Assembly (NCBI RefSeq): GCF_035917415.1
Contig: NZ_CP109073.1
Coordinates: 372,001-436,000 of the forward strand
DNA length: 64,000 nucleotides
Direction: 5' to 3'
Source of the DNA: Streptomyces sp. NBC_01803
Lineage (GTDB): Bacteria; Actinomycetota; Actinomycetes; Streptomycetales; Streptomycetaceae
Positions 32,623 through 45,219 of this stretch are shown here, piece after piece. The notes below the pieces were generated by a model. It was not told where the DNA came from, searched no databases, and saw only the letters and a list, made by a program, of their open reading frames with translations. A program made the translations under genes and the position numbers. Within the stretch, counting starts at the first letter, position 1; each line of letters starts with the position of its first letter.

Positions 32623-33825
32623 TTGCCACATCCTGCTGACGACCACACTGGCGCGCGTATCGCCGATCACCGCAAGCTCCGCCAGCTCACCCAAGCCGGT
32701 TTGGCTCAGCGGGCGTTCCTCTCGCGCGGCACCATCGCCAAGGTGGAAGCCGGGCTCACCCCTGCCACTCCGGCGATCGTGGCGGCCGTCGCCAGAGCGC
32801 TGGAAGTCGAGATCGCGGTACTCAACGGTCAGCCCTACATGGACGAGATGCGCCAAGACCGGCTGGACCGCATGGTCGCGCCGCTGTCCGATGTGCTCGA
32901 CATGTACGACCTCGGCCCGGACCCGTACATCACACCGCGCCCCCTGGGCGTGATCGCGGCCGAGGTGGACGAGCTGTGCGCGCAGACCTGCGCCACCGAG
33001 TACAAGGGCGTGGGCGAGAAGCTGCCGGGCCTGCTCGGTGAGCTGACCACCGCCGTGAGTCTGCTCAACGGGGCGGAGCGGCAGCAAGCGGCCGGGGCGC
33101 TGTCGTGGCTGTACTGGGTGGCCTACGAGTTCGCGTACCGCCTGGGCTACCACCAGCTCGCCGCAATCGCGTTGGAACGCATGGGCTGGATGGGCGAGCA
33201 GGCGCAGGACCCGTTGCTGCTCGCCACGCGGCTGACGAAGCGCTCATCCATGCTGCTGCGGCGCGGCGAGAACGTCATGGCCCGGCGCGTGCTCGACCGC
33301 GGCCTGTCTCTCGTCGGGCAGCACGACGCCCCGAGGGGCGTGCCAGCGCTCGCGGTGGAGGGCACCCTGCACCTGGCCGGCGCCATCGCCGCCGCGCAGG
33401 CGAAGGACGGCGACACCGTCGACGGGTACATGGAGGAAGCGCGGCGCACGGCGAAGGCGATCGGCCGCGACGTCCCGCACGTGTATTGGGGGTCGTTCGG
33501 GCTGACCAACGTGCAGCACTTCGCCGTCGCCACCGCCGTCGAACTCGGCCATCTGGGCGACGCGATGAAGGAAGCGAAGGAGCTGCACTTCCCGCCTCAG
33601 CACCCCAAGATGCGGGTCGGCCGGTACCACATCGAGATGGCCCGCGCCTTCGCCCAGATGGGCAGGCACCCGCAGGCGGAGAAGGCGCTGCACCTGGCGC
33701 GCGAGGTGGCGCCGCAGCAGGCCCGCTACCACCCGTTGATGCGGGAGACGATCGGTGTGCTGGTGCGCCGTCAGAGGCGCGCTCCACAGGGGCTGACGGC
33801 GCTGGCGGCGTGGGTGGGTATGTAG
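32623..33825 (+). CDS. XRE-family regulator with TPR-like C-terminal region
   Basis: A 400-residue regulator. The N-terminal Cro/C1 helix-turn-helix (about 10-65) includes RKLRQLTQAGLAQRAFLSRG and KVEAGLTPATPAIV. The rest is all-alpha with TPR-like hairpins (for example AKALHLAREVAPQQ near the end), a common architecture of Streptomyces regulators that sit beside small-peptide or RiPP loci. The start is probably TTG 32623 (CGGAG 6 bases upstream, then the HTH). A GTG at 32509 exists but overlaps the terminator. A perfect palindrome 18 bases after its stop may be its operator. It likely controls the graspetide genes downstream. Confidence 0.82.
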   Translation: MPHPADDHTGARIADHRKLRQLTQAGLAQRAFLSRGTIAKVEAGLTPATPAIVAAVARALEVEIAVLNGQPYMDEMRQDRLDRMVAPLSDVLDMYDLGPDPYITPRPLGVIAAEVDELCAQTCATEYKGVGEKLPGLLGELTTAVSLLNGAERQQAAGALSWLYWVAYEFAYRLGYHQLAAIALERMGWMGEQAQDPLLLATRLTKRSSMLLRRGENVMARRVLDRGLSLVGQHDAPRGVPALAVEGTLHLAGAIAAAQAKDGDTVDGYMEEARRTAKAIGRDVPHVYWGSFGLTNVQHFAVATAVELGHLGDAMKEAKELHFPPQHPKMRVGRYHIEMARAFAQMGRHPQAEKALHLAREVAPQQARYHPLMRETIGVLVRRQRRAPQGLTALAAWVGM

Positions 33826-33843
33826 CGCGGGACGTGGTCGGGA

Positions 33844-33864
33844 GTGTTCCCGAATCGGGAACAC
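33844..33864. promoter_or_regulatory. Perfect 21-bp palindromic operator candidate
   Basis: GTGTTCCCGA - A - TCGGGAACAC: two perfect 10-base arms around one base. It lies between the XRE gene and the next gene, about 65 bases before the latter's start. This is the form expected of an XRE dimer site. Confidence 0.65.
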
Positions 33865-33929
33865 CAGGGGCCTTCCCCTCCACCACAGTGATGACTGTCA
33901 GCGCACGGCAGCTCACTGGAGAGCCGATT

Positions 33930-34478
33930 ATGGCGACGATCGCCCCCGCACTACCCCCAGCGGTACCCGAGTGGATTCCCGTCGGCCGGTACCCCGAACT
34001 CCGGCCCACCGGCCGGTGGTTCGATGCCGTCACGGCCTACAGCGTCGAGGGCGTCCGCGCGATCGCGCGGCTCGGCGAGCGGTCCGGGCCGGTGATCGAT
34101 GACCCGGAGCAGGGACTCGTCACGTGGTTCGTCAGGCCCGGGTCGGCCGTGGGCTGGTCGTTGCCGTGCGTCGGGGTCCTCGGCGCCGGTTGCGAGATCG
34201 TCGTTCCCCCGGCGGCCGTTCCGGACAGGGCGCTCCTGCGCTGGGTGATCCCTCCGGCCGGGGACTGCCTGACCTGTCCGGCGCTGCTGTACGACACGCT
34301 CGCCCTCGTCACCGGCGGACGGAGACCGAGGGCGAGCGTGTCCACCTTCACGTCGCCCGAGTGCCTCTTCGGCGAGCACGAGGCGTGCACCAAGGCCGAG
34401 GTGCCCTCCTCCCCGCAGGACAGCTCGGTGATCTACGAGCCGTGCAACTGTGACTGCCACGCGGGGGCCGGGCGGTGA
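33930..34478 (+). CDS. Hypothetical protein, copy 1 of a duplicated gene
   Basis: A 182-residue protein of unknown function. It contains EWIPVGRYPELRPTGRWFDA, TWFVRPGSAVGWSLPCVGVL and PAGDCLTCPALLYDTLALVT, and a Cys-rich C-terminus (ECLFGEHEAC, EPCNCDCHAGAG). The C-terminal CNCDCH cluster could bind a metal. Residues 14-182 are nearly identical to the gene at 36250-36825. ATG 33930 has GGAGAG upstream. Its stop overlaps the GTG of the following (truncated) gene by four bases, as in copy 2. Confidence 0.75.
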   Translation: MATIAPALPPAVPEWIPVGRYPELRPTGRWFDAVTAYSVEGVRAIARLGERSGPVIDDPEQGLVTWFVRPGSAVGWSLPCVGVLGAGCEIVVPPAAVPDRALLRWVIPPAGDCLTCPALLYDTLALVTGGRRPRASVSTFTSPECLFGEHEACTKAEVPSSPQDSSVIYEPCNCDCHAGAGR

Positions 34479-34630
34479 GCCGGATGATGACGCTGGCCCT
34501 GCTCAGCGATGAGGCGCTGGCGCGGGCGGGGGACTCGCACCCGGAGTTGTGCGTCCGGCTCGTGGTCACCGGCATCCGCCACGACCCATCCGGCCGGACA
34601 CCGCCGTCGCGGCTGGAGCTTCGGATGTCC
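33969..34630 (+). repeat. 662-bp direct repeat, left copy
   Basis: Matches 36316-36977 without gaps (constant offset 2347). I count five base differences by eye, about 99% identity. It covers most of one hypothetical gene and the first third of the next. Confidence 0.9.
34475..34630 (+). pseudogene. Truncated copy 1 of the second duplicated gene
   Basis: The first 52 codons (MSRMMTLALLSDEALARAGD...) are the same as in the gene at 36822, with one amino-acid change. Similarity then stops abruptly at 34630, where the duplicated block ends. The frame runs on without a stop into antisense of the XRE gene, giving nonsense. Confidence 0.7.
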
Positions 34631-34678
34631 ACAGGCAGGCGGCGGGGCGCTCCCGCCACTGACCAACGCCTCGCGATG

Positions 34679-34721
34679 CCCCGGGCGCCCGGCCTTCCTC
34701 GTGAAGGCGGGCGCCCGGGGG
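34679..34721. terminator. Long imperfect hairpin at the 3' end of the second XRE gene
   Basis: CCCGGGCGCCCG-GCCTTC pairs with GAAGGC-GGGCGCCCGGG around CTCGT, with a one-base bulge. It lies 20 bases beyond the minus-strand stop and could work in both directions. Confidence 0.7.
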
Positions 34722-34741
34722 CTGTCGTCATTTCCGGGGCT

Positions 34742-36112
34742 TCAGGCGTGGGCAAGTTGCCATGTGCGGGCACGCTCGTCCAGGTCAGCGGCTCTCCGGG
34801 CCCCCCGCCGCAGCACCGGCCGGAGGGTCCGGCGCATCCCGGCAACCGCGTCGACGCCCCGGGACGAACGCACTCCCTCCAGCATGTCCAGCGCCCTGTC
34901 CCAGGTGTCGCACGCCTGCTCGACATGGCCCTGGGCGGCCTGCTCACGTCCTTGTGCCGCGATCGTCAGCGCGGTGATCCGCCGGTACTCCGGCGAAGGC
35001 CGGGACCGCGCGGCAGCGGCGTAATGCCGTTCGGCGGCCGAGTGGTCGCCCAAGGCCACCATGGTCTTCGCGCTGTGGCTGGAGACACAGGCCCGTGCCG
35101 AACCCCACAGTGCCGCCCAACGGGGCATCTCCCGCTCGTCGCCGCGCAGCACGAGGTCCTGCGCGGATCTCAACTGGCGGGTGGCTTCGGTGCGTCGGCC
35201 AGCGTTGGCCAGTGCGCGAGCGCGCGTGACCTGGAAGAGCGCCTCGGTGCACGTGTCGGCTTGGCCGTGGACGCGTCCCAAGGCGGCGTCGGCCAGTTCG
35301 AGGGTGTGTCCTGGCTGCCGGATGTCCATCCCGTTGTGCGCCATGATCCGCAGTATGAACGCTTCGTGCAGCCGGTCATCTGCTTCGCGGGTGAGCTGGA
35401 ACGCCTGGAGGTAGTAGCGCTGCGCGAGGCCGTGTTCGCCGGCGTCGTACGCTTTCCAGCCGCACAGGTAGGCCAGTTCGGCTGCGGCGCCCAGCATCGC
35501 GTTGCGGTAATCCTGGGTTGCGAACGTCGCGCGGCACAGCCGGGCGACGTCCGAGGTGAGGTACTGGACCACGGCGGCCCGCCCGTGCTGTCCGCCGTGC
35601 CGTTCGTCGATGGCGGTGAAGAGCGCGGTCATGTCCCGGACGGCGTCGATCTCCGCGTGTCCGGCGCGCTGGCCGGTGGCCCGTTGCTGGTACTCGGCTG
35701 CCTGCTCGATACCCAGGGGCAGCGCGGCTGCGGCGACGCTGTAGGCGGCCCCGGTGATGAAGCCCCTCCGTTCGATGTCGGCCTCGCCCAACTGGCGCAG
35801 CAAGGTCACCGGATCAGGCCCCAGGCGCAATCCGAGACGCGCCGGGGCCTGACTGCTGTCCACCAGTCCGAGGTCGGCGGGCTCCACCTGGCGCCCCAGT
35901 CGCCTGGACAGTGCTTCTGCGATGTACGAAGCCGTCCGCGGCACCGGGCGCTTCCCCCCGATCCAGTGGGCCACAGCGCTCTTGTTCGTCAGAAGGCTGT
36001 CTCCTGTCTCTGCTGCCACCGCGCGGACCGCGCGGGCGAGTTGGTCATAGCTGTATCCGGCCTCGACGACGGCGTCCCGCAACGCCTGATTCGACGTCCG
36101 CCTGTTGGTCAC
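34742..36112 (-). CDS. XRE-family regulator with TPR-like domain, inserted between duplicated blocks
   Basis: A 456-residue regulator on the opposite strand. The N-terminal HTH region (about 5-75; SYDQLARAVRAVA..., NKSAVAHWIGGKRPVPRT) is followed by a linker and TPR-like helical repeats to the end. It is of the type often annotated as transcriptional regulator/tetratricopeptide protein in Streptomyces. The start is GTG 36112. It lies exactly between the two copies of a 662-bp repeat, reading toward the truncated copy. It may be a recent insertion or the core of a duplicated segment. A GGTATACC palindrome (36147-36154) upstream may be part of its promoter. Confidence 0.82.
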   Translation of the reverse strand: MTNRRTSNQALRDAVVEAGYSYDQLARAVRAVAAETGDSLLTNKSAVAHWIGGKRPVPRTASYIAEALSRRLGRQVEPADLGLVDSSQAPARLGLRLGPDPVTLLRQLGEADIERRGFITGAAYSVAAAALPLGIEQAAEYQQRATGQRAGHAEIDAVRDMTALFTAIDERHGGQHGRAAVVQYLTSDVARLCRATFATQDYRNAMLGAAAELAYLCGWKAYDAGEHGLAQRYYLQAFQLTREADDRLHEAFILRIMAHNGMDIRQPGHTLELADAALGRVHGQADTCTEALFQVTRARALANAGRRTEATRQLRSAQDLVLRGDEREMPRWAALWGSARACVSSHSAKTMVALGDHSAAERHYAAAARSRPSPEYRRITALTIAAQGREQAAQGHVEQACDTWDRALDMLEGVRSSRGVDAVAGMRRTLRPVLRRGARRAADLDERARTWQLAHA

Positions 36113-36249
36113 TCTCTGATCACCCTCCCGAGCAGGGCGTTAAACCTGGTATACCGTTCCGCAGCCGTAGCCGCTAGTCGCAACCACCCTACGGGGAGTT
36201 GTATCCGCTGTAACCGATCCACCGAATCTTCAGCCCGAGGGGGCAGTAG

Positions 36250-36825
36250 GTGCCGATCACAGCAGCGGGCTGGCCACCGCCCGATGACCCCGACTCCGAA
36301 CTCACCCGTGTCTCCGAGTGGATTCCCGTCGGCCGGTATCCCGAACTCCGGCCCACCGGCCGGTGGTTCGATGCCGTCACGGCCTACAGCGTCGAGGGCG
36401 TCCGCGCCATCGCGCGGCTCGGCGAGCGGTCCGGGCCGGTGATCGATGACCCGGAGCAGGGATTCGTCACGTGGTTCGTCAGGCCCGGGTCGGCCGTGGG
36501 CTGGTCGTTGCCGTGCGTCGGGGTCCTCGGCGCCGGTTGCGAGATCGTCGTTCCCCCGGCGGCCGTTCCGGACAGGGCGCTCCTGCGCTGGGTGATCCCT
36601 CCGGCCGGGGACTGCCTGACCTGTCCGGCGCTGCTGTACGACACGCTCGCCCTCGTCACCGGCGAACGGAGACCGAGGGCGAGCGTGTCCACCTTCACGT
36701 CGCCCGAGTGCCTCTTCGGCGAGCACGAGGCGTGCACCAAGGCCGAGGTGCCCTCCTCCCCGCAGGACAGCTCGGTGATCTACGAGCCGTGCAACTGTGA
36801 CTGCCACGCGGGGGCCGGGCGGTGA
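36250..36825 (+). CDS. Hypothetical protein, copy 2 of the duplicated gene
   Basis: 191 residues, from EWIPVGRYPEL onward nearly identical to the 33930-34478 protein, but with a different N-terminus (MPITAAGWPPPDDPDSELTRVS). GTG 36250 with a G-rich ribosome binding site 6 bases upstream. It has the same Cys-rich tail (CNCDCHAG). The stop overlaps the next gene's GTG by four bases. No function is known to me. It is probably the functional copy, since the complete downstream genes follow it. Confidence 0.75.
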   Translation: MPITAAGWPPPDDPDSELTRVSEWIPVGRYPELRPTGRWFDAVTAYSVEGVRAIARLGERSGPVIDDPEQGFVTWFVRPGSAVGWSLPCVGVLGAGCEIVVPPAAVPDRALLRWVIPPAGDCLTCPALLYDTLALVTGERRPRASVSTFTSPECLFGEHEACTKAEVPSSPQDSSVIYEPCNCDCHAGAGR

Positions 36826-36977
36826 GCCGGATGATGACGCTGGCCCTGCTCAGCGATGAGGCGCTGGCGCGGGCGGGGGACTCGCACCCGGAGTTGTGCG
36901 TCCGGCTCGTGGTCGCCGGCATCCGCCACGACCCATCCGGCCGGACACCGCCGTCGCGGCTGGAGCTTCGGATGTCC
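36316..36977 (+). repeat. 662-bp direct repeat, right copy
   Basis: Right partner of 33969-34630, same orientation, about 99% identical by eye. Confidence 0.9.
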
Positions 36978-37514
36978 CCGGGCCAGCTCAGGGACCTGAT
37001 GGCGCAGGGCCGCGCGGCCCAGGTGGCGCACGTCGCCCAGGCCCGCGCCCGCGCCGGGCGCGCACAGGCCGCCGGGGCCGCCGCCGAAGTCGCCACCGAC
37101 GGGACCCGCGTCGACACGGGCGTCATCGAGCGGGTGGCGATCGCCCTCCACGAGTACCAGCCGCCGGCCGCGTCGCCGGCCCCGGCCCGGCCCGGCCCGG
37201 CCCCCCACCCAGCCCCGTCCGCCCACTCGGCCAGCGACCGCCACCAGCCCCGTAGATCCCCCTGCCAGCCCGGGGAGCCACTCGGAGGCTCCATCCAAGG
37301 CCGGGCCGGCAGGGTGTCCCCGCCCCTTTTCGCTGACGACCAGGGGGCGGGAAGGCGACCCCGCCTGGGGAGGCCAGGGGTCGCAGGGTCCCGGCCGCCT
37401 TTTCCCCCCGTCGGGCGACCGGGACCCACTCCCCTCCTCATCCTCTTCATGGACCGGCTTCCGGCTCCAAGCACTCGACGAAGGAGAACCACCCCATGCA
37501 CGCCACCACCGTGA
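36822..37514 (+). CDS. Hypothetical protein upstream of the graspetide precursors
   Basis: Begins MSRMMTLALLSDEALARAGD and contains PGQLRDLMAQGRAAQVAHVA and GVIERVAIALHEYQPPA. The first 115 residues look coding. Beyond that the frame turns into Pro/Arg/Ser-rich sequence and overlaps the first precursor gene by 19 bases. The true protein may therefore be shorter, with a frameshift or stop-loss in the tail. No family recognised. It is coupled to the preceding gene by a GTGA overlap. Confidence 0.55.
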   Translation: MSRMMTLALLSDEALARAGDSHPELCVRLVVAGIRHDPSGRTPPSRLELRMSPGQLRDLMAQGRAAQVAHVAQARARAGRAQAAGAAAEVATDGTRVDTGVIERVAIALHEYQPPAASPAPARPGPAPHPAPSAHSASDRHQPRRSPCQPGEPLGGSIQGRAGRVSPPLFADDQGAGRRPRLGRPGVAGSRPPFPPVGRPGPTPLLILFMDRLPAPSTRRRRTTPCTPPP

Positions 37515-37753
37515 TGCCTTCCCCCAGCGCGCTGCCCACTGCTCAGCGGCCGTTCGTGCTGGGCCTGTTCACCGCTGACCCGTCGCCCGCCGGCCAGGAT
37601 CGTCACCCGCTGAGCAAGCCGCGGTTCGACCCGGTGCGGCAGGTGTCCGTCCTCGCGGACGGCACGCCCCGCGTCAGCACGCTGTGGGCGGACCCCACCA
37701 AGACCCACGCCGTGCGCGGCCACCGGGGAGAGCTGGAGTCCCTGATCCTGTGA
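37496..37753 (+). CDS. tgmA: Graspetide (ATP-grasp-modified RiPP) precursor peptide 1
   Basis: An 85-residue precursor. The leader contains QRPFVLGLFTAD (about 18-29) and the TgmA hallmark RFDPVRQVSVLADGTPRVST (about 44-63), the stretch recognised by the TgmB ATP-grasp ligase. The likely core is the last 25 residues, with Ser/Thr donors (VST, PTKT) and Glu/Asp acceptors (LWAD, GELES) for omega-ester or omega-amide crosslinks. AAGGAG is 9 bases before the ATG. It is followed by a second, different precursor and the maturase gene. Family assignment rests on the motif and on the order tgmA-tgmA-tgmB. Confidence 0.85.
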   Translation: MHATTVMPSPSALPTAQRPFVLGLFTADPSPAGQDRHPLSKPRFDPVRQVSVLADGTPRVSTLWADPTKTHAVRGHRGELESLIL

Positions 37754-37833: not shown

Positions 37834-38106
37834 ATGCCCACGACCACCGCTGTCCCCGTCACGGGCCCTCAGACATTGCCGCCCGCCCGCCGGCCGTTCG
37901 TGCTGGGCCTGTTCACCCCCAGCCCCCGACTGCCGCTGGACACGGGGGCGTTCCGGTTCGACCCGGTGCGGCAGATCGGCGTCCTGGCGGACGGCACGCC
38001 CCGCGCCGACGCGCCCGGGGACGAGCGCAGCAGGACCACCGGCGGCCTGAACTCCCCGACCGAGCTGGAGATCGACGGCACTGCCTCGGACGGACTTCCG
38101 CTGTGA
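37834..38106 (+). CDS. tgmA: Graspetide precursor peptide 2
   Basis: A 90-residue second precursor. It shares RRPFVLGLFTPS and RFDPVRQIGVLADGTPRADA with precursor 1 but has an unrelated C-terminus rich in Thr/Ser and Asp/Glu (SRTTGG, SPTELEIDG, SDG), a good substrate for several ester crosslinks. The leader is conserved while the core is divergent, as expected for two products from one maturase. GAGG precedes the ATG at 37834. Its TGA overlaps the GTG of the maturase gene (GTGA). Confidence 0.85.
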   Translation: MPTTTAVPVTGPQTLPPARRPFVLGLFTPSPRLPLDTGAFRFDPVRQIGVLADGTPRADAPGDERSRTTGGLNSPTELEIDGTASDGLPL

Positions 38107-39293
38107 CGGCGGAGTCTGACCGCCCGGTGGCGGTGATCACCGAGCCGGACAATCTGACGGCCGACCGCGTCGTGCTGGAACTGGGAGAGCTGGGCGTCCC
38201 TGTGGTCCGGTTCGACCTGGCCGACTTTCCCCGGGACATGACACTGAATGCCTCCCTCAGCCCTGCGGGCTGGCACGGCACCCTGTCCGTACACGGCCGG
38301 ACCGTGGCGCTCCAGGAGCTGCGTGCCATCTGGTGGTGGCACCCGGGACCGCCAAGGATCGCCCTGGACGGGCTGTGCGCGGCGGAGGCCGAGTGGGCGC
38401 GGGAAGAGGCCATGGCCGGTGTGGCTGGGGTGCTGGCCGCGCTGGAATGCGAGCATGTCAACCACCCGTCGCGCACCCGGGCGGCGCAGTCCAAGCCGGG
38501 CGCGCTGGCCTCCGCCGCGGCCTGCGGCCTGAACGTGCCGGCCACCTGGATCGGCAACCACCCCGGCGCCGCGCGGGGCTTCGCCCGGGAGACACCCGGC
38601 GGGGTGGTGGGCAAGGCCCTCACCCGCCCGTGGATCGCCTGCCCGGACGGCACCTCCCGGTCCCTGCACACCACCCCGGTCGATCACCGGGCCATCGACA
38701 GCGGCATCGGCCTGGGCGCCCACCAGCTCCAGCACCGTGTCGTCAAGGACCACGAGGTGCGGCTGACCGTCGTGGGCGGGGAGATGTTCGCCGCCCGTAT
38801 CGACGCCCACAGCCCGGCCGCCCGTGAGGACTTCCGCGCGGACTACGGCGCCCTGACCTACCGCCACACCCAGGTCCCGGACACGGTGCGCGAGGGCATC
38901 ACCCGGCTGATGGCCCACTACGGGCTGCTGGTCGCGGCCATCGACCTCCTGGTCGACGAACAGGGGCACTGGTGGCTGGTCGACCTCAACCCCGCTGGGC
39001 AATGGGACTGGCTCCAGAAAGAGCTGCCCGCCCTGCCACTGGCCCAGGCCATGGCCGAACTGCTCGCCTCCGGCCGCCCGACGGCCAAGCAGCCCGCGGT
39101 GTCGCCGGCAGTGCCGGGCCCACAGGCGGACCTGAGCCTGTGCCCGGAGCGGCAGATCACCGTCACCGAGGACGGCGTGCCGTTCATCAGCACCCCGTCC
39201 ATGGCGAGCAGCTTCGAGACCGTCGTCCAGACCCAGGAGGACATGCAGATCTTCGACGGATCGAATTCCCGAAAGGGGGCGAGCCACACCTGA
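38103..39293 (+). CDS. tgmB: TgmB-like ATP-grasp graspetide maturase with a precursor-like C-terminal tail
   Basis: A 396-residue ATP-grasp ligase that should form side-chain ester/amide links in the precursor cores. Visible are the N-terminal AVITEPDNLTADRVVLEL, the IWWWHPGPPR motif of this group (about 76-85), ATP-binding GGVVGKALT (about 165-174), DHEVRLTVVGGEMFA (about 218-232) and the metal-binding VDLNPAGQWDW (about 296-306). Usual TgmB proteins end shortly after this, near 320-330 residues. Here about 60 residues follow, containing PERQITVTEDGVPFIST (348-364). This matches the precursor recognition motif P-x-R-Q-V-x-V-x-x-D-G-x-P-x-x-S-T and is followed by a Ser/Thr/Glu/Asp-rich end. 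No methyltransferase gene follows. Confidence 0.88.
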   Translation: MTAESDRPVAVITEPDNLTADRVVLELGELGVPVVRFDLADFPRDMTLNASLSPAGWHGTLSVHGRTVALQELRAIWWWHPGPPRIALDGLCAAEAEWAREEAMAGVAGVLAALECEHVNHPSRTRAAQSKPGALASAAACGLNVPATWIGNHPGAARGFARETPGGVVGKALTRPWIACPDGTSRSLHTTPVDHRAIDSGIGLGAHQLQHRVVKDHEVRLTVVGGEMFAARIDAHSPAAREDFRADYGALTYRHTQVPDTVREGITRLMAHYGLLVAAIDLLVDEQGHWWLVDLNPAGQWDWLQKELPALPLAQAMAELLASGRPTAKQPAVSPAVPGPQADLSLCPERQITVTEDGVPFISTPSMASSFETVVQTQEDMQIFDGSNSRKGASHT

Positions 39294-39630
39294 CCTGGGT
39301 GGAGCCCGGAGTCGGCCCATGAAGAGGAGAGGAGCTGCCCGTCCCCGCCTGCGAGACAAGCCGGGGCGGGCGGCCGGCTGGTCCTCCACCACGATCCCGT
39401 CAGCTGTCCTGCGGCGCTGCCGCGGCGGCGCCCAGCTCCCGGTCCGCGAGAGGTTCTCCGCACCACCGCCTCCGGTCAACCTCCGGTCGACATAGCGGCC
39501 GGCCCCATGGGCCTTCCCTTCCTCGGGTTTGTACTGTGCTGGCGCAGGGCCGACCTGGCAACGGGAGGGAGAGCTGAATCGGTGGTGCTCCTCCGGCTTC
39601 GGGCGGCGTGACAGAGCACAAGGAGGACGG
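39294..39630. other. Stretch between maturase and phosphatase remnant
   Basis: No gene. It holds a terminator-like hairpin (39337-39372) and, at its right end, AGGAGG (39621-39626) before the phosphatase start codon. Confidence 0.5.
39337..39372 (+). terminator. Probable terminator of the graspetide operon
   Basis: GCCCGTCCCCG pairs with CGGGGCGGGC with one bulged base, about 45 bases after the maturase stop. Confidence 0.5.
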
Positions 39631-40133
39631 ATGAGCAGGGGCAAGGCTGCTGAGAGCAGTCCTCGGGTACGGACGGTTGAGCTTCCGGGGGGAGGCGTGG
39701 TATTGGCCCGGGGTTTGCGGGGTGCGTCGGCGCCGCAGCCGTTTCCGCAGTTCGGCCTGTATCTGCTGGGACATCCTCTCGACCGCCCCAACTTCTACGG
39801 CCGGTACCTGGTGGGGCTGCGCCCGTGGAGCCCGCCCTGGCCGCACGAGCGCGTCGACTGGCCTGACTTCTCCTCCCCTCGTCAGCCGGAGGAAGCGATC
39901 GGTCAACTCCGTGGGGCCTGGCCCGCATACAGCATGGTGAACGTGTCGAGGTCGCCTGCGGCGGCGGGCGTGGTCGCACCGGGACCGCCTTGGCCGCACT
40001 CGCCATCCTCCAAGGGATGTCTTCCGCCGAGGCGGTCGCATGGGTGCGGGCGGCATACGCCCCCAAGGCGGTCGAGACGCGGTCACAACACCGCTTCCTC
40101 CACCGAGTCGCCGCTTCGGAATCACCTGCTTGA
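39631..40133 (+). pseudogene. Frameshifted protein-tyrosine phosphatase family gene
   Basis: Frame one encodes MSRGKAAESSPRVRTVELPG to about EEAIGQLRGAW (39631 to about 39920), with the PWSPPWPHERVDWPDF segment typical of a Streptomyces tyrosine-phosphatase-like family. The catalytic part continues one frame back: ERVEVACGGGRGRTGTALAA (Cys codon 39957-39959, C-x5-R signature), then AEAVAWVRAAYAPKAVETRS, stopping at TGA 40131-40133. Joining the two gives a normal-looking protein of about 165 residues, so a single-base loss, perhaps in the GGGG at 39913, broke it. AGGAGG is 4 bases before the ATG. A sequencing error or programmed shift cannot be excluded. Confidence 0.75.
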
Positions 40134-40690
40134 AGCCGGTGACACAACCACGGCGACGACCGCTGCCGCCCACCCCGCCCATGTGGCGTCCGTAGGGGGC
40201 CGTGCGGACCGAGGTTGTCCGGCGCCGAGATTCGCAAACACGTACGAACGTCTCCCCCGTCTCGAACTCCGGGCGTCTGCCGCCCTGAGGCAGCGCGGTC
40301 GTGTCCCGTACCGTGAACGACCGGCCGCCGACCAGGAGTTGGGTCGCCCACGCGGACACCCGTCGCGTCCGGTTCCCGCGACCCGTACACCGCCCCGCTC
40401 ACCGTCCGCGCTCCGGCTGTTCGGCCCTCTCCGGCCGCGCGGGACACGTGTGGGTCGAGACAGGCACCATCTCCCCGAACGCACCGCAGTAGACCGTCTG
40501 CCGCCCACGGGCCGGCCACTTCCTCGATCAAGGCGCCGAGATGTGCACGATCAAGGCCGCAGAAGGCAGGATGGGACAAGGCCGCGCGGGCCGAGAAGGA
40601 CGTCACCATCCACTCAACCCGCGCGGCCCTCGTCATGTCACGGCCGGCCAACCCCGCGCTACCGCGTATCGAGTCGTTAGGCTCAAAGAC
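40134..40690. other. Stretch of decayed sequence
   Basis: No intact gene. On the minus strand, from a GTG at 40359, a short run (WATQLLVGGRSFTVRDTTALP, ..EFETGETFVRVCESR) resembles the start of small Streptomyces proteins of the VRD-LPGGGKRL type. It lacks a sensible stop and runs into antisense of the phosphatase, so it is at best a remnant. The promoter of the VOC gene is at the right end (TTAGGCT near 40676). Confidence 0.35.
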
Positions 40691-41131
40691 ATGACTGTTC
40701 AGCGGATGGACAACGTCGCCATCGTCGTCGACGATCTGGACGCGGCTGTCGCCTTCTTCACCGCGCTCGGCATGGAGCTGGAAGGCAAGGCGCAGATCGA
40801 AGGCATGTATGCGGACCGCACCGTCGGACTCGACGGCGTCCGGAGCGACATCGCGATGATGCGGACCCCGGACGGCCACAGCAAGCTGGAGCTGACCAAA
40901 TACCACACCCCCGCGGTATCCGACGCCGAGCCGCGGAACCCTCCGCCCAACACGCTGGGCCTGCATCGCGTCATGTTCGCCGTCGACGACATCGACGACA
41001 CCATCGCCCGCCTGCGCGCCCACGGCGCCGAACTCCTCGGCGAGGTAGCGCAGTACGAGAACATCTTCCGGCTCTGCTACCTCCGCGGCCCCGCAGGCAT
41101 CATCGTCGCCCTAGCCGAACAGATTGGCTGA
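40691..41131 (+). CDS. VOC/glyoxalase-fold protein
   Basis: A 146-residue vicinal-oxygen-chelate protein with two beta-alpha-beta-beta-beta modules: MDNVAIVVDDLDAAVAFFTALGMEL (split over residues 6-30) and GLHRVMFAVDDIDDTIARLRAHG (about 92-114), ending YLRGPAGIIVALAEQI. Metal ligand candidates are the Glu in KLELTKY and the Glu near the end in ALAEQ. These proteins are dioxygenases, lyases or resistance proteins; the substrate cannot be read from the sequence. There is no Shine-Dalgarno before the ATG; a TAGGCT -10-like element 8 bases upstream suggests a leaderless transcript. Confidence 0.82.
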   Translation: MTVQRMDNVAIVVDDLDAAVAFFTALGMELEGKAQIEGMYADRTVGLDGVRSDIAMMRTPDGHSKLELTKYHTPAVSDAEPRNPPPNTLGLHRVMFAVDDIDDTIARLRAHGAELLGEVAQYENIFRLCYLRGPAGIIVALAEQIG

Positions 41132-41152
41132 CGCGGGCCTGCCACGCGGAGC

Positions 41153-41464
41153 ATGTCGACGGTCAGCACCGCGTGGGAGCAGGCCAAGCCCACCATGCTC
41201 GCCTCGCTCAGCCTGCCCGCCGAGGCGGGTGAGCATCCGGCGGCACGGGCCGCGCTGTTGGACGGCCCCTACCGCGAGATCGCCGCGCGGGTGCCGACGA
41301 ACTCCCAGATCGTGTTCGACGACGACGGACGGCCGCACGTCGCCGCCCTGGAGCCGGAGCCCGAACCCGCCTGCGCCCGAGTAGGCGGCGGGGGGGCATG
41401 GCGGGGCACCACGTGGCGCGTCAGTCGGCTTTGTCGCCTGCCAGTGTGGTCCGTACCAGGGTGA
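41153..41464 (+). pseudogene. Possible transposase (Tn3-type) fragment
   Basis: The frame reads LLDGPYREIAARVPTNSQIV then FDDDGRPHVAALEPEPEP, which reminds me of an internal segment of Tn3-family transposases in actinomycetes. It then loses sense (Gly run, overlap with the MarR gene). No inverted repeats or other transposase parts are nearby. Assignment is from memory of the motif and is weak. Confidence 0.3.
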
Positions 41465-41885
41465 GCAGCGCGTCGAGGTCTGTCAGCTGCTGTGGTGCCA
41501 GCGAGCCGAAGAGCTGACGAAGCACGTGAGTTCCTGCCTCTTCCGCCGCTGCCAGGGCGGTGCGGCCCGTATGCGTCAGCTTGACGGTCTTGCGGCGGCG
41601 GTCCTCGGGGTGGCCGGTCCGGCTGACCAAGCCGAGGCGTTCCAGGCTCTCCAGGATCTGGGTTACGGAGCGCGGGGCCTGTCCGAGGGCGGTGGCGAGT
41701 TCGGCCTGGTGCAGCGCGCCGCGGCCGGCCAGCGCCTGGAGGACCTTGGTGCGGGAGAGAGACAGTCCCGCGGTCGCCATCATGTGCTGATCGACCTGTT
41801 CGCGCAGGGTGTGGGCGAGGGTGAGGAAGGACAGTCCCACCTGCTCCGGCGTGCTAGCTGTAGCTGTTGCTTCGTACCGCTCCAT
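41421..41885 (-). CDS. MarR-family regulator, divergent from an SDR gene
   Basis: A 154-residue MarR protein. The core is LSLSRTKVLQALAGRGALHQ then AELATALGQAPRSVTQILESL (recognition helix), with the wing TGHPEDRRRKTVKLTHTGRTA. It is divergent from the SDR/MMPL pair with 57 bases between, containing a perfect 12-bp palindrome. The expected role is repression of the SDR and transporter genes until a ligand, perhaps a toxic aromatic, binds (inference). Confidence 0.88.
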   Translation of the reverse strand: MERYEATATASTPEQVGLSFLTLAHTLREQVDQHMMATAGLSLSRTKVLQALAGRGALHQAELATALGQAPRSVTQILESLERLGLVSRTGHPEDRRRKTVKLTHTGRTALAAAEEAGTHVLRQLFGSLAPQQLTDLDALLTLVRTTLAGDKAD

Positions 41886-41914
41886 GGTTCAGGTATCCTC
41901 CCATAGTGTAATCA

Positions 41915-41926
41915 TGAGGTACCTCA
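41915..41926. promoter_or_regulatory. Palindromic operator candidate in the MarR/SDR gap
   Basis: TGAGGTACCTCA is a perfect 12-bp palindrome. A related AGGTATCCTC lies at 41891-41900 next to the MarR start, so there may be two sites. Confidence 0.55.
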
Positions 41927-41942
41927 CGAAAGGAGCTGTGAG

Positions 41943-42809
41943 ATGGACCGTCCGGTTGCCCTGATCACCGGAGCCACCTCCGGACTGGGCCGCATCGCCG
42001 CCTTCGAGCTGGCCCGGCTGGGCTACCGCATCGGCGCTGTGGCTCGCTCCCGGAGCAAGGCGGAAGCCCTCGTCGACGAGCTCAGGGCGGTGACCGACGG
42101 GCCCGTCGATGTCTTCCACGGCGACCTCGGCCTCATCTGCGACGCGCGCCGCATGGGTGAGGAGATCGCCGCGCACTACCCGCGCCTGGACGTCCTGGTC
42201 AACAACGCCGGCCTGCACGCCTTCACGCAGCGCGTCACCGCCGAAGGCTTCGCGGAGATGACAGCCGTGAACTACCTGGGCCCGTTCGTGCTCACCGAGG
42301 CGCTGAAGGGCAAGCTCGGCGCCTCAGCGCCGGCCCGGGTCGTCAACGTCGCCTCCGAGGCGTCCCGGCAGGCGAAGACCATCGCGCCGGCTGTGGATCT
42401 GCGCCGTACCGACGCCTACACCCGCCGGGAGTCGATGCCTCTGTACGGACGCACCAAGCTGATGACGATCATGTGGACGCAGGAGCTCGCCCGACGCCTG
42501 AACCCGAACAAAGTCACGGTGAACTGCTGCGATCCCGGCTTCAACGCCACCGGCCTGGGCCGGGACCTGCCCGGCTCCGCTGTCCTGCAGCGCGTGCTGA
42601 ACACCCTGAGGATCGGCGATCCCCGCAAGGGCGCCGGCATCATCGTGCGGCTCGCCACCGACCCGGCGTTCGCCGGGACCAGCGGCGGCTACCTCTCCGT
42701 GCGTGACGCCCGCCCGCTGGAGTGCCCCGAACCCGGCCGGGCCCCGCTCCTGCAGAAGGAGCTGTGGGAGGAGACCGTGGAGCTCCTCGCCGCCCACGCG
42801 GTCGACTGA
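41943..42809 (+). CDS. Short-chain dehydrogenase/reductase
   Basis: A 288-residue Rossmann oxidoreductase similar in layout to retinol-dehydrogenase-like SDRs. The cofactor motif is TGATSGLGRIAA (about 8-19), then NNAGLHAF (about 84), the active-site region NVASEAS (Ser) and YGRTKLM (Tyr/Lys, about 167-173). A PGFNATGL loop follows. NADP preference is likely from the Arg-rich VARSRSK after beta-2. AAGGAG lies 6 bases before the ATG. It is followed 175 bases later by an MMPL transporter and probably controlled by the divergent MarR. Confidence 0.88.
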   Translation: MDRPVALITGATSGLGRIAAFELARLGYRIGAVARSRSKAEALVDELRAVTDGPVDVFHGDLGLICDARRMGEEIAAHYPRLDVLVNNAGLHAFTQRVTAEGFAEMTAVNYLGPFVLTEALKGKLGASAPARVVNVASEASRQAKTIAPAVDLRRTDAYTRRESMPLYGRTKLMTIMWTQELARRLNPNKVTVNCCDPGFNATGLGRDLPGSAVLQRVLNTLRIGDPRKGAGIIVRLATDPAFAGTSGGYLSVRDARPLECPEPGRAPLLQKELWEETVELLAAHAVD

Positions 42810-42984
42810 GACCTGAGTCGTCCGTCGAAAGAAGGACGGCGACCGGTACCGGGGTACCGCCCCGGGCGCGGATTCGTCCTCGCGTAGCTCATTTCGGCCG
42901 CACCCGGCTCCTACGTTTGTCCGCGGCGCCTGTCATGTCTGCCCCTTTTACATCCTTTTCTTCTTCCCTGTGGGAGTAATTCTC

Positions 42985-45219
42985 GTGGCCACCTTTCTCT
43001 ACCGGCTCGGCCGGCTCGCCTTCCGGCGGCGCCGACTGGTGCTGCTGGCCTGGATCGCGGTGCTCATCGCCGCGGGCATCGGCGCCAGCAGTGTGTCCGG
43101 CACGACGACGGACAACTTCACCCTTCCCGGCACCCAGTCGCAGCAGGCCATCGACCTGTTGGAGAAGGAGTTCCCCCAGGCATCGGCCTCCGGTGCCACA
43201 GCCCGCGTGGTCATCGAGGCCACGGACGGGCAGAAGGTGACGTCCGCCGCGCACAAGCCACTGGTGGAGTCCCTGATCGCCGACCTGCAGAAGGCGCCGC
43301 AGGTGGCGAGCGTCGCTGATCCCTTCACCGCCGGCCTGGTCAGCTCCTCGGGCAGCATCGCCTACGCCCAGGTGACCTATGCCGTCCCGCAGGCCGATAT
43401 CACTTCTGCCGCGTCGGACGCCCTGCACGAGGTGGCGGACCGGGGCGAGCAGGCCGGCCTGAACGTCAGCCTGGGCGGCGACGCGGTGCTGGAGGAGGAG
43501 CAGAGCAACGCCGCGGAGCTGATCGGCCTGCTGGTCGCCGCCTTCGTCCTGGTCATCACCTTCGGTTCGCTGGTCGCGGCCGGGCTGCCGTTGCTGTCCG
43601 CGATCGTCGGCGTCGGTATCGCCCTGTGCGGCATCACCGTCGCCTCGTCGTTCGTCGACATGGCCTCCAACGCGCAGACCCTGGCGCTCATGCTGGGGCT
43701 GGCGGTGGCGATCGACTACGCCCTGTTCATCGTCTCCCGCTACCGCACGGAGCTTCGGGCGGGGCATCAGCCCGAGGAAGCCGCCGGACGTGCCCTGGGC
43801 ACCGCGGGCTCGGCCGTGGTGTTCGCCGGCCTGACCGTCATCATCGCGCTGGCGGGGCTGAGCGTCATCGGGATCGCGATGCTCACCACCATGGGCCTGG
43901 CCGCGGCCTTCGCCATCACCGTCGCCGTGCTGGTCGCGCTCACCCTGCTGCCGGCCACGCTGGGTTTCGCCGGCAACCGTGTGGCAGGCGGGCGCCTGAC
44001 CACGCGGCGTATGCGCGCCGCGCAGCGCGACCGGCGCGTCACGATGGGCGTGCGCTGGGGCCGCTTCGTCACCCGGCATCCCTGGAAGATGCTGCTGGCC
44101 TCGGTCGTCGGCCTGAGCGTGCTGGCCGTACCCGCGCTGTCGCTGCGGCTGACCCTGCCGGACGACAGCATGGCCGCTCCCGGCAGTACACAGCGCGTGG
44201 CCTACGACACGCTGAGCAAGGGCTTCGGGCCGGGTTTCAGCGGCCCGCTGACCGTCGTCGTCGACGCGCGGGACGGTGACGACGCGGAGGCCGCGGCGAC
44301 GGATACCTCCGCGATGCTGGACAGTCTCACGGACGTCGTCACTGTGCGGCCTCCGGTCTTCAACGAGGCCGGTGATGTCGCCTTGCTCACCGCGGTGCCG
44401 GGCAGCTCACCCACCAGCCAGGAGACGGTCGACCTGGTCGCCGAGATACGTGACCGCAGTGCCGCGGTGGAGGAGGACAACGGCACGCGCGTGATGGTGA
44501 CCGGCACGACCGCTGTCAACATCGACGTCTCCGCCAAGCTCGGTGAGGCGATGGTGCCCTACCTGGCCATCGTCGTCGGTCTGGCACTGATCCTGCTGCT
44601 GCTGGTGTTCCGGTCGGTGCTGGTCCCGCTGAAGGCCGCAGCGGGCTTCCTGCTCAGCGTGGTCGCCACCCTCGGCGTGCTGGTGGCCGTGTTCCAGTGG
44701 GGCTGGCTGAAGGACGTCTTCGGCGTGGACGAGACCGCGCCCATCGTCAGTCTGTTGCCGATCCTGCTGATCGGTGTCGTCTTCGGCCTGGCCATGGACT
44801 ACGAGGTATTCCTCGTCTCCGGCATGCGCGAGGCATACGTCCACGGCGCCGGCCCCACCGAGGCGATCGTCACCGGATTCCGGCACGGCGCCCGCGTGGT
44901 CACCGCCGCCGCCGTCATCATGATCTCGGTCTTCGCCGGCTTCCTCCTCGACGACATCGTCCTGGTGAAGTCCATCGGCATGGGCCTGGCCACCGCTGTC
45001 CTCTTCGACGCCTTCGTCGTCCGCATGACCCTCGTGCCCGCGGTGATGACCCTGCTCGGCGAGCGGGCCTGGGCACTTCCCGGCTGGCTCGACCGCCTGC
45101 TGCCCAACGTGGACGTCGAGGGGGAAAAACTGCGTCATGCCCTGGCCGAACGCGACCGTCAGATGTCCGTTCCCGCGCCGTCCGACCAGGAGCCGGCGGC
45201 GCCTGCTCCCCTGGGGTAG
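42985..45219 (+). CDS. MMPL-family RND transporter
   Basis: A 744-residue inner-membrane transporter with the MMPL layout: one helix, an extracytoplasmic domain (about 60-170), a block of five helices (about 175-335), a second extracytoplasmic domain (about 380-500) and a final helix block. Conserved proton-path residues are in ALMLGLAVAIDYALFIVSRY (about 236-255) and GVVFGLAMDYEVFLVSGMRE (about 597-616), both with the D-Y pair typical of MMPL proteins. It likely exports lipids, glycolipids or hydrophobic drugs. GTG 42985 has GGGAG 8 bases upstream; a GTG at 42970 is possible. Confidence 0.92.
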   Translation: MATFLYRLGRLAFRRRRLVLLAWIAVLIAAGIGASSVSGTTTDNFTLPGTQSQQAIDLLEKEFPQASASGATARVVIEATDGQKVTSAAHKPLVESLIADLQKAPQVASVADPFTAGLVSSSGSIAYAQVTYAVPQADITSAASDALHEVADRGEQAGLNVSLGGDAVLEEEQSNAAELIGLLVAAFVLVITFGSLVAAGLPLLSAIVGVGIALCGITVASSFVDMASNAQTLALMLGLAVAIDYALFIVSRYRTELRAGHQPEEAAGRALGTAGSAVVFAGLTVIIALAGLSVIGIAMLTTMGLAAAFAITVAVLVALTLLPATLGFAGNRVAGGRLTTRRMRAAQRDRRVTMGVRWGRFVTRHPWKMLLASVVGLSVLAVPALSLRLTLPDDSMAAPGSTQRVAYDTLSKGFGPGFSGPLTVVVDARDGDDAEAAATDTSAMLDSLTDVVTVRPPVFNEAGDVALLTAVPGSSPTSQETVDLVAEIRDRSAAVEEDNGTRVMVTGTTAVNIDVSAKLGEAMVPYLAIVVGLALILLLLVFRSVLVPLKAAAGFLLSVVATLGVLVAVFQWGWLKDVFGVDETAPIVSLLPILLIGVVFGLAMDYEVFLVSGMREAYVHGAGPTEAIVTGFRHGARVVTAAAVIMISVFAGFLLDDIVLVKSIGMGLATAVLFDAFVVRMTLVPAVMTLLGERAWALPGWLDRLLPNVDVEGEKLRHALAERDRQMSVPAPSDQEPAAPAPLG

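Follow-up and report, generated by a model that had tools for sequence, protein, structure and literature searches.

In-frame fusion of a graspetide precursor fragment to a TgmB-like ATP-grasp enzyme in Streptomyces sp. NBC_01803

Two precursors and an extended ATP-grasp enzyme

The window, i.e. the whole stretch of DNA that was analysed, comprises 64,000 nucleotides of the genome of Streptomyces sp. NBC_01803 (contig NZ_CP109073.1, positions 372,001 to 436,000), and all positions given below refer to it. It contains a small graspetide cluster, in which a tgmB-like open reading frame (ORF) lies directly downstream of two precursor genes, p1 and p2. The p2 stop overlaps the tgmB start, and the whole unit of p1, p2, tgmB and the tail encoded at its 3' end is enclosed by an inverted repeat:

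37441..37469, + strand: left arm of the inverted repeat, 29 nt, 86% complementary to the right arm
37496..37753, + strand: precursor p1, 85 aa, leader RPFVLGLFT...RFDPVRQVSVLADGTPRV; TIGR04186 23.9 bits, slightly below the cut-off of 25
37834..38106, + strand: precursor p2, 90 aa, leader type as in p1; TIGR04186 28.6 bits, over the cut-off of 25
38103..39293, + strand: tgmB-like ATP-grasp ORF, C-terminally extended, 396 aa; TIGR04187 331.6 bits, residues 8-321
39300..39328, - strand: right arm of the inverted repeat, 29 nt, immediately after the tgmB stop

The arrangement resembles that of the actinobacterial TgmA/TgmB (TIGR04186/TIGR04187) clusters, with which it shares adjoining short precursors carrying an RPF leader and a DPxxQ...DGxP motif, and an ATP-grasp ligase immediately 3' of them. 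It differs from these in that the ligase carries a C-terminal, in-frame precursor fragment of another class, and in that the ligase scores under the TIGR04187 cut-off (331.6 vs 350 bits). The leader of p1 is like that of p2, but its core lacks the TxGGL...ExEI(F)D pattern common to p2 and P0064, a precursor from Streptomyces sp. 8L. It is possibly a divergent or decaying paralogue.

TIGR04187 was covered from position 1 to 311 of 312 by the 396-aa protein (E=4.3e-99). Seven relatives scanned singly, two of which were fragments, scored 173-337 bits and were likewise all under the cut-off. In the AlphaFold2 model, block means of pLDDT were 91-98 across residues 11-320, and the ATP-grasp fold was like that of solved graspetide ligases, with PruB (9bou, E=2.2e-28) and MdnC (5ig9) as the best Foldseek matches. 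All 18 invariant columns of a 56-sequence alignment, which included the window's enzyme, were present in it. Based on these columns, the confident fold and the structural matches, the ATP-grasp domain looks intact and functional.

The tail and its precursor class

The residues following the ATP-grasp domain were divided into three parts:

39081..39134, + strand: linker, residues 327-344; its first part is like the native C-termini of relatives, which are short (by eye)
39135..39257, + strand: precursor fragment of the LCPERQ class, residues 345-385, comprising the latter half of a leader and the greater part of a core
39258..39290, + strand: last 11 residues, GSNSRKGASHT, where the class has an acidic D-x-D core end (class alignment, motif check)

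The precursor profile TIGR04186 matched the tail with 34.7 bits (E=1.4e-8) when it was searched alone and with 30.3 bits (E=3.3e-7) within the whole protein, where the match spanned residues 334-386. The match started at profile position 13-14 of 72. Both scores exceed the cut-off of 25, and the tail alone ranked above p2 (28.6 bits) and p1 (23.9 bits). Since a curated profile was matched over its cut-off, the tail is derived from a precursor, and at the level of sequence its similarity to precursors is more than chance. The significant tail-precursor match on which the preliminary description had staked its claim was therefore found. The 17-residue alignment it gave between PERQITVTEDGVPFIST of the tail and PVRQVSVLADGTPRVST of p1 was reproduced with 9 of 17 residues identical, but the similarity extends further than this motif, from S345 to D385. 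The fusion of precursor-derived sequence to the enzyme is supported by the profile and by the stand-alone precursor P0067 described next.

Profile searches with p2, p1, P0064 and the tail as queries returned P0067 and P0068. The former is a stand-alone protein of 98 aa from Streptomyces aidingensis, annotated as ‘putative ATP-grasp-modified RiPP’. Residues 345-382 of the tail were identical to P0067 at 36 of 38 positions and to P0068 at 26 of 38. An origin of the tail from p1 or p2 was rejected, as the pairwise E-values were 1e-4 and 0.001, against this near identity to P0067. The nearest relative found is thus P0067, of another class, rather than p1 or p2.

Relatives of P0067 at E<=1e-4 were found in 9 of 392 genomes of the genus and 11 of 394 of the family, the window's genome being counted in both. 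The class has the approximate pattern PFG...LCPERQ...DGxPF...PSM...QTxED...D-x-D. A tgmB motif was present downstream of the precursor in all 17 class loci examined outside the window's genome, although the open frame that contains it is only 119 aa long in L155 and 253 aa in L156. The C-termini of the class enzymes read, for example, DVNPNGQWGFIPALRAPITQALADLLE, which the window's enzyme does not resemble. At the DNA level, positions 39137-39254 matched the class precursor gene of L151 with 78% identity over 118 bp in a plus-strand blastn search of nine class loci, four of which lay in the wrong orientation for it. The other matches of this search fell in the tail and tgmB, except for a weak one of 49 bp that lay upstream of p1.

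Unlike the free-standing P0067, which has a PFG leader motif and an acidic core end, the tail has kept neither end of a precursor. Each of the 19 class sequences examined, namely P0067, P0068 and those of the 17 loci (two of these identical; L153, L164 and L167 read by eye), has a PFG motif in its leader and ends its core with D-x-D, and both are missing from the tail. The resemblance to the class ends at D385, after which only GSNSRKGASHT and the stop follow. The preliminary description had likened the composition of the tail to that of graspetide cores; most of a core is indeed retained, but these last residues are unlike the core ends of the class. The residues preceding S345 look like native ends of relatives, e.g. 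RPHTAAQPPTA (by eye). Because both class ends are absent and native-like residues precede S345, the fragment is internal, and the enzyme seems to have retained its own C-terminal end.

The same genome yielded neither a complete copy of such a precursor nor a cognate enzyme. No further P0067-like match was found there at E<=1e-4, GRASP_targ matches at E<=0.01 were limited to p1, p2 and the tail, and there was no second strong TIGR04187 enzyme, the second match scoring 52.8 bits. A remnant of a second TgmB near the cluster was also considered and rejected: when the regions 33501-37490 and 39294-43000 were searched by tblastn with the 17 class enzymes, a single match of 52 residues (E=0.054) was obtained. 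No match to P0067 was found in plasmid records. Relatives of TgmB occurred in 59 of these records, with at most 48.6% identity among the 20 matches listed.

An assembly or sequencing artefact, by which two genes were fused or a stop codon was deleted, would agree with a fusion that is confined to one genome while the class members examined elsewhere are free-standing. We regard it as very unlikely. The genome is a single 5.85-Mb contig, GC3 of residues 350-386 is 0.97, and a single base error would not yield a fragment that lacks both ends and has unrelated sequence on its flanks. Even less credible is an additional, separate translation of the tail region from an internal start, which would yield a third precursor poor in leader sequence. 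An in-frame GTG is present at 39099, upstream of the fragment, but, in contrast to p1 and p2, no purine-rich ribosome-binding site is apparent ahead of it (by eye), and the product would be without the PFG motif.

Distribution of the fusion among relatives

To place the tail among related enzymes, 5.8 billion proteins were searched and the best 7993 candidates were scored, which gave 62 relatives besides the window's protein. The window's enzyme continues for 75 residues past the end of TIGR04187 compared with 13 in the middle relative, in agreement with the excess of about 60 residues noted in the preliminary description. The range was 3-37 residues in 57 of the 62 relatives, and five ran further; the additional residues are therefore real, but a long C-terminal extension is not in itself peculiar to this enzyme. 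P0005 (Streptomyces sp. 8L, L070) has 85 residues past the profile end, in an extension without a TIGR04186 match. P0016, P0017, P0018 and P0052 have 208-211 residues past it and carry a C-terminal NUDIX domain.

A TIGR04186 match at the C-terminus was found in none of the 62 relatives, and in the 56-member alignment (A1) only the window's protein had a match to this profile at E<=0.1. A tail shared by most TgmB homologues, which by the preliminary description would have counted against its claim, was thus not seen among the homologues examined. A search with residues 326-396 returned the window's protein only, among 12 candidates. P0048, a metagenomic protein of 422 aa on a 1,980-bp contig and one of seven relatives outside alignment A1, has a sub-threshold TIGR04186 match of 24.0 bits at its N-terminus (residues 12-71), from which an in-frame fusion at the opposite end is possible.

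Genomes were surveyed in the same manner. Matches to the enzyme were found at E<=1e-60 in 33 of 295 genomes of the genus Streptomyces (best 6 candidates scored per genome), at E<=1e-75 in 5 of 392 genomes of the genus (best 4 per genome) and at E<=1e-40 in 16 of 41 genomes of relatives, with the window's genome included in each count. Among the matches listed in these 295, 392 and 41 genomes, no other ran stop-free into the tail region. In a scan of 173 tgmB ORFs, with overlapping loci counted, the fused domain occurred solely in five reads of the window's locus; the profile was built from 14 class loci, p1 and p2 and is hence weighted to one precursor class. The fusion was accordingly seen in one genome.

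Two further sources of fusions were examined and rejected. Relatives gave no support for read-through into a precursor located downstream, the inspected stretches after the stop being unlike a precursor (L020 and some others were left out). Among the long open frames L171-L173, two were free precursors with an apparently spurious upstream frame and one was unrelated. A natural precursor-TgmB fusion was described neither among the literature matches listed nor in the excerpts of PMC8939145, PMC13003496, PMC13097080, PMC9826346 and PMC8429565.

Origin and possible roles of the tail

The preliminary description had considered that the enzyme modifies itself, that the tail is a built-in pseudo-substrate, or that it is the fossil of a third precursor. 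The fusion of precursor-derived sequence stands and the fossil fits best, whereas the other two are weakened because the tail has no RPFG/PFG, has no acidic core end and stems from a class that lies next to a different TgmB type. We propose that a TgmB which appears intact has acquired, in frame, an internal piece of a foreign, non-cognate precursor, and that this piece is probably a scar of recombination. The comparisons show the fusion itself, the class from which the piece stems, the loss of both its ends and the completeness of the enzyme domain. The starting point would have been an ordinary two-precursor graspetide cluster, p1-p2-tgmB. Part of the interior of a precursor gene from the other class may then have been added to the 3' end of tgmB by illegitimate recombination. 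The frame was preserved, and the protein now ends in a precursor-derived and probably disordered tail. The ATP-grasp domain most likely still crosslinks the cores of p1 and p2 after recognising their RPFVLGLFT leader motif. The tail itself is most likely inert and not a substrate, since it has neither the leader recognition motif nor the acidic core end and comes from a non-cognate class.

Published work on related systems bears on this proposal. In the excerpt of the ThfA/ThfB study (PMC13003496), a construct in which SUMO replaced the leader escaped modification by ThfB, the recognition element was inferred to be RPFG, and a leader placed at the C-terminus could do without the final 40 of its 67 residues. 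Makarova et al. considered conserved leader motifs most likely to activate ATP-grasp enzymes, as with PFFARFL, and found only aspartates conserved throughout their alignment of cluster 2 cores (excerpt of PMC8939145); we infer that this cluster takes in TgmA-type precursors. Some points speak against a scar. The results for ThfB may not apply to the window's enzyme, tethering could substitute for leader recognition, as in borosins, and a stretch that is in frame and so close to P0067 is also consistent with a selected tail.

We also considered whether the tail is retained because it affects the enzyme in cis: it could be a tethered substrate whose ring pattern has become independent of the leader motif, or a leader mimic that tunes the access of p1 and p2. 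Taken together, such roles appear unlikely. As a self-substrate in the manner of borosins, the tail would have its Ser/Thr residues crosslinked to Glu/Asp by the enzyme to which it belongs; tethering would replace the leader motif and a protease would free the product. Most of a core (PSMASSFETVVQTQEDMQIFD) is retained, including Ser/Thr and Glu/Asp, and natural fusions of enzyme and core are known from borosins of types I-III (excerpt of PMC8429565). Furthermore, a fuscimiditide precursor with its leader at the C-terminus was still modified (excerpt of PMC13003496). This role is nonetheless improbable, given that the tail lacks the D-x-D core end found throughout the class, that the aspartates alone are conserved across cluster 2 cores according to the excerpt of PMC8939145, that the precursor class adjoins a different TgmB type and that leaderless ThfA was left unmodified by ThfB in the excerpt of PMC13003496. 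Like the fungal borosins (OphMA type), the window's enzyme combines a modifying enzyme and a core-like sequence in one chain, with the core at the C-terminus. Borosins differ in being methyltransferases of other chemistry and fold, and in the window's locus the fused core is truncated and free precursors, p1 and p2, are present as well.

If the tail is a leader mimic, its leader half would fill or gate the leader site of the enzyme, which would lead to constitutive activation or to competition with p1 and p2. MvdD and MvdC became constitutively active ligases when engineered to carry a leader at their N-termini (excerpt of PMC9826346), and the leader half SLCPERQITV...PFIS is nearly unchanged compared with P0067. 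The probability of this role is similarly low: the part retained is not the recognition motif, PFG being missing, and AlphaFold2 placed the tail without confidence. All but one of residues 331-396 had a pLDDT <50 in the single-chain model, which is a weak test because the aligned relatives have no tail. The window's fusion shares with the engineered ligases a leader sequence that is covalently attached to the enzyme; the latter are man-made, N-terminal and carry an activating leader, whereas the fusion described here is natural, C-terminal and without the recognition motif.

The sequence variation of the tail was compared with that of the class. pN/pS of the tail against class members had a mean of 0.81 (range 0.47-1.33, 10 pairs) and that of the other pairs a mean of 0.65 (range 0.37-1.26, 45 pairs), ranges that do not separate drift from constraint; the calculation left out L153, L155, L159, L164, L166, L167, L168 (duplicate of L161), P0067 and P0068. 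The high identity to P0067 would fit either a recent fusion or constraint.

If the tail does act in cis, the protein would be, according to the literature search, the first natural enzyme-precursor chimera of an ATP-grasp RiPP system, and one assembled from two graspetide systems. It would then be the natural equivalent of ligases engineered with a fused leader, would parallel in bacteria the borosins of fungi, and would illustrate how fused enzymes of RiPP pathways originate. If it is a scar, as we prefer, it would still record plainly that two graspetide systems recombined, and would caution that tools for finding precursors can match inside a maturase gene.

The surroundings of the cluster were inspected as well. 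The arms of the inverted repeat match at 25 of 29 positions, compared with a maximum of 22 among 396 pairs of 100-base segments drawn at random from the window, a comparison made post hoc. Inverted pairs of 20-28 nt with 71-86% complementarity were also seen in the loci of six relatives, and a genome scan with an IUPAC pattern (<=3 mismatches) gave no copy of the repeat beyond these two arms. Given the post hoc comparison and the pairs in the loci of relatives, the repeat may have arisen by chance; alternatively, it could be the trace of a mobile cassette or of a past rearrangement. Upstream of the cluster, a 670-bp direct repeat (99% identical) is located at 33967-34636 and 36314-36983, which together with the inverted repeat hints at local rearrangement. 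Downstream, the first part of the region 39631-40133 had no Pfam match. The region contains a GGGRGRTGT stretch, which we take to be phosphatase-loop-like, in another frame than the upstream ORF at 39631, and its sequence suggests a frameshifted gene.
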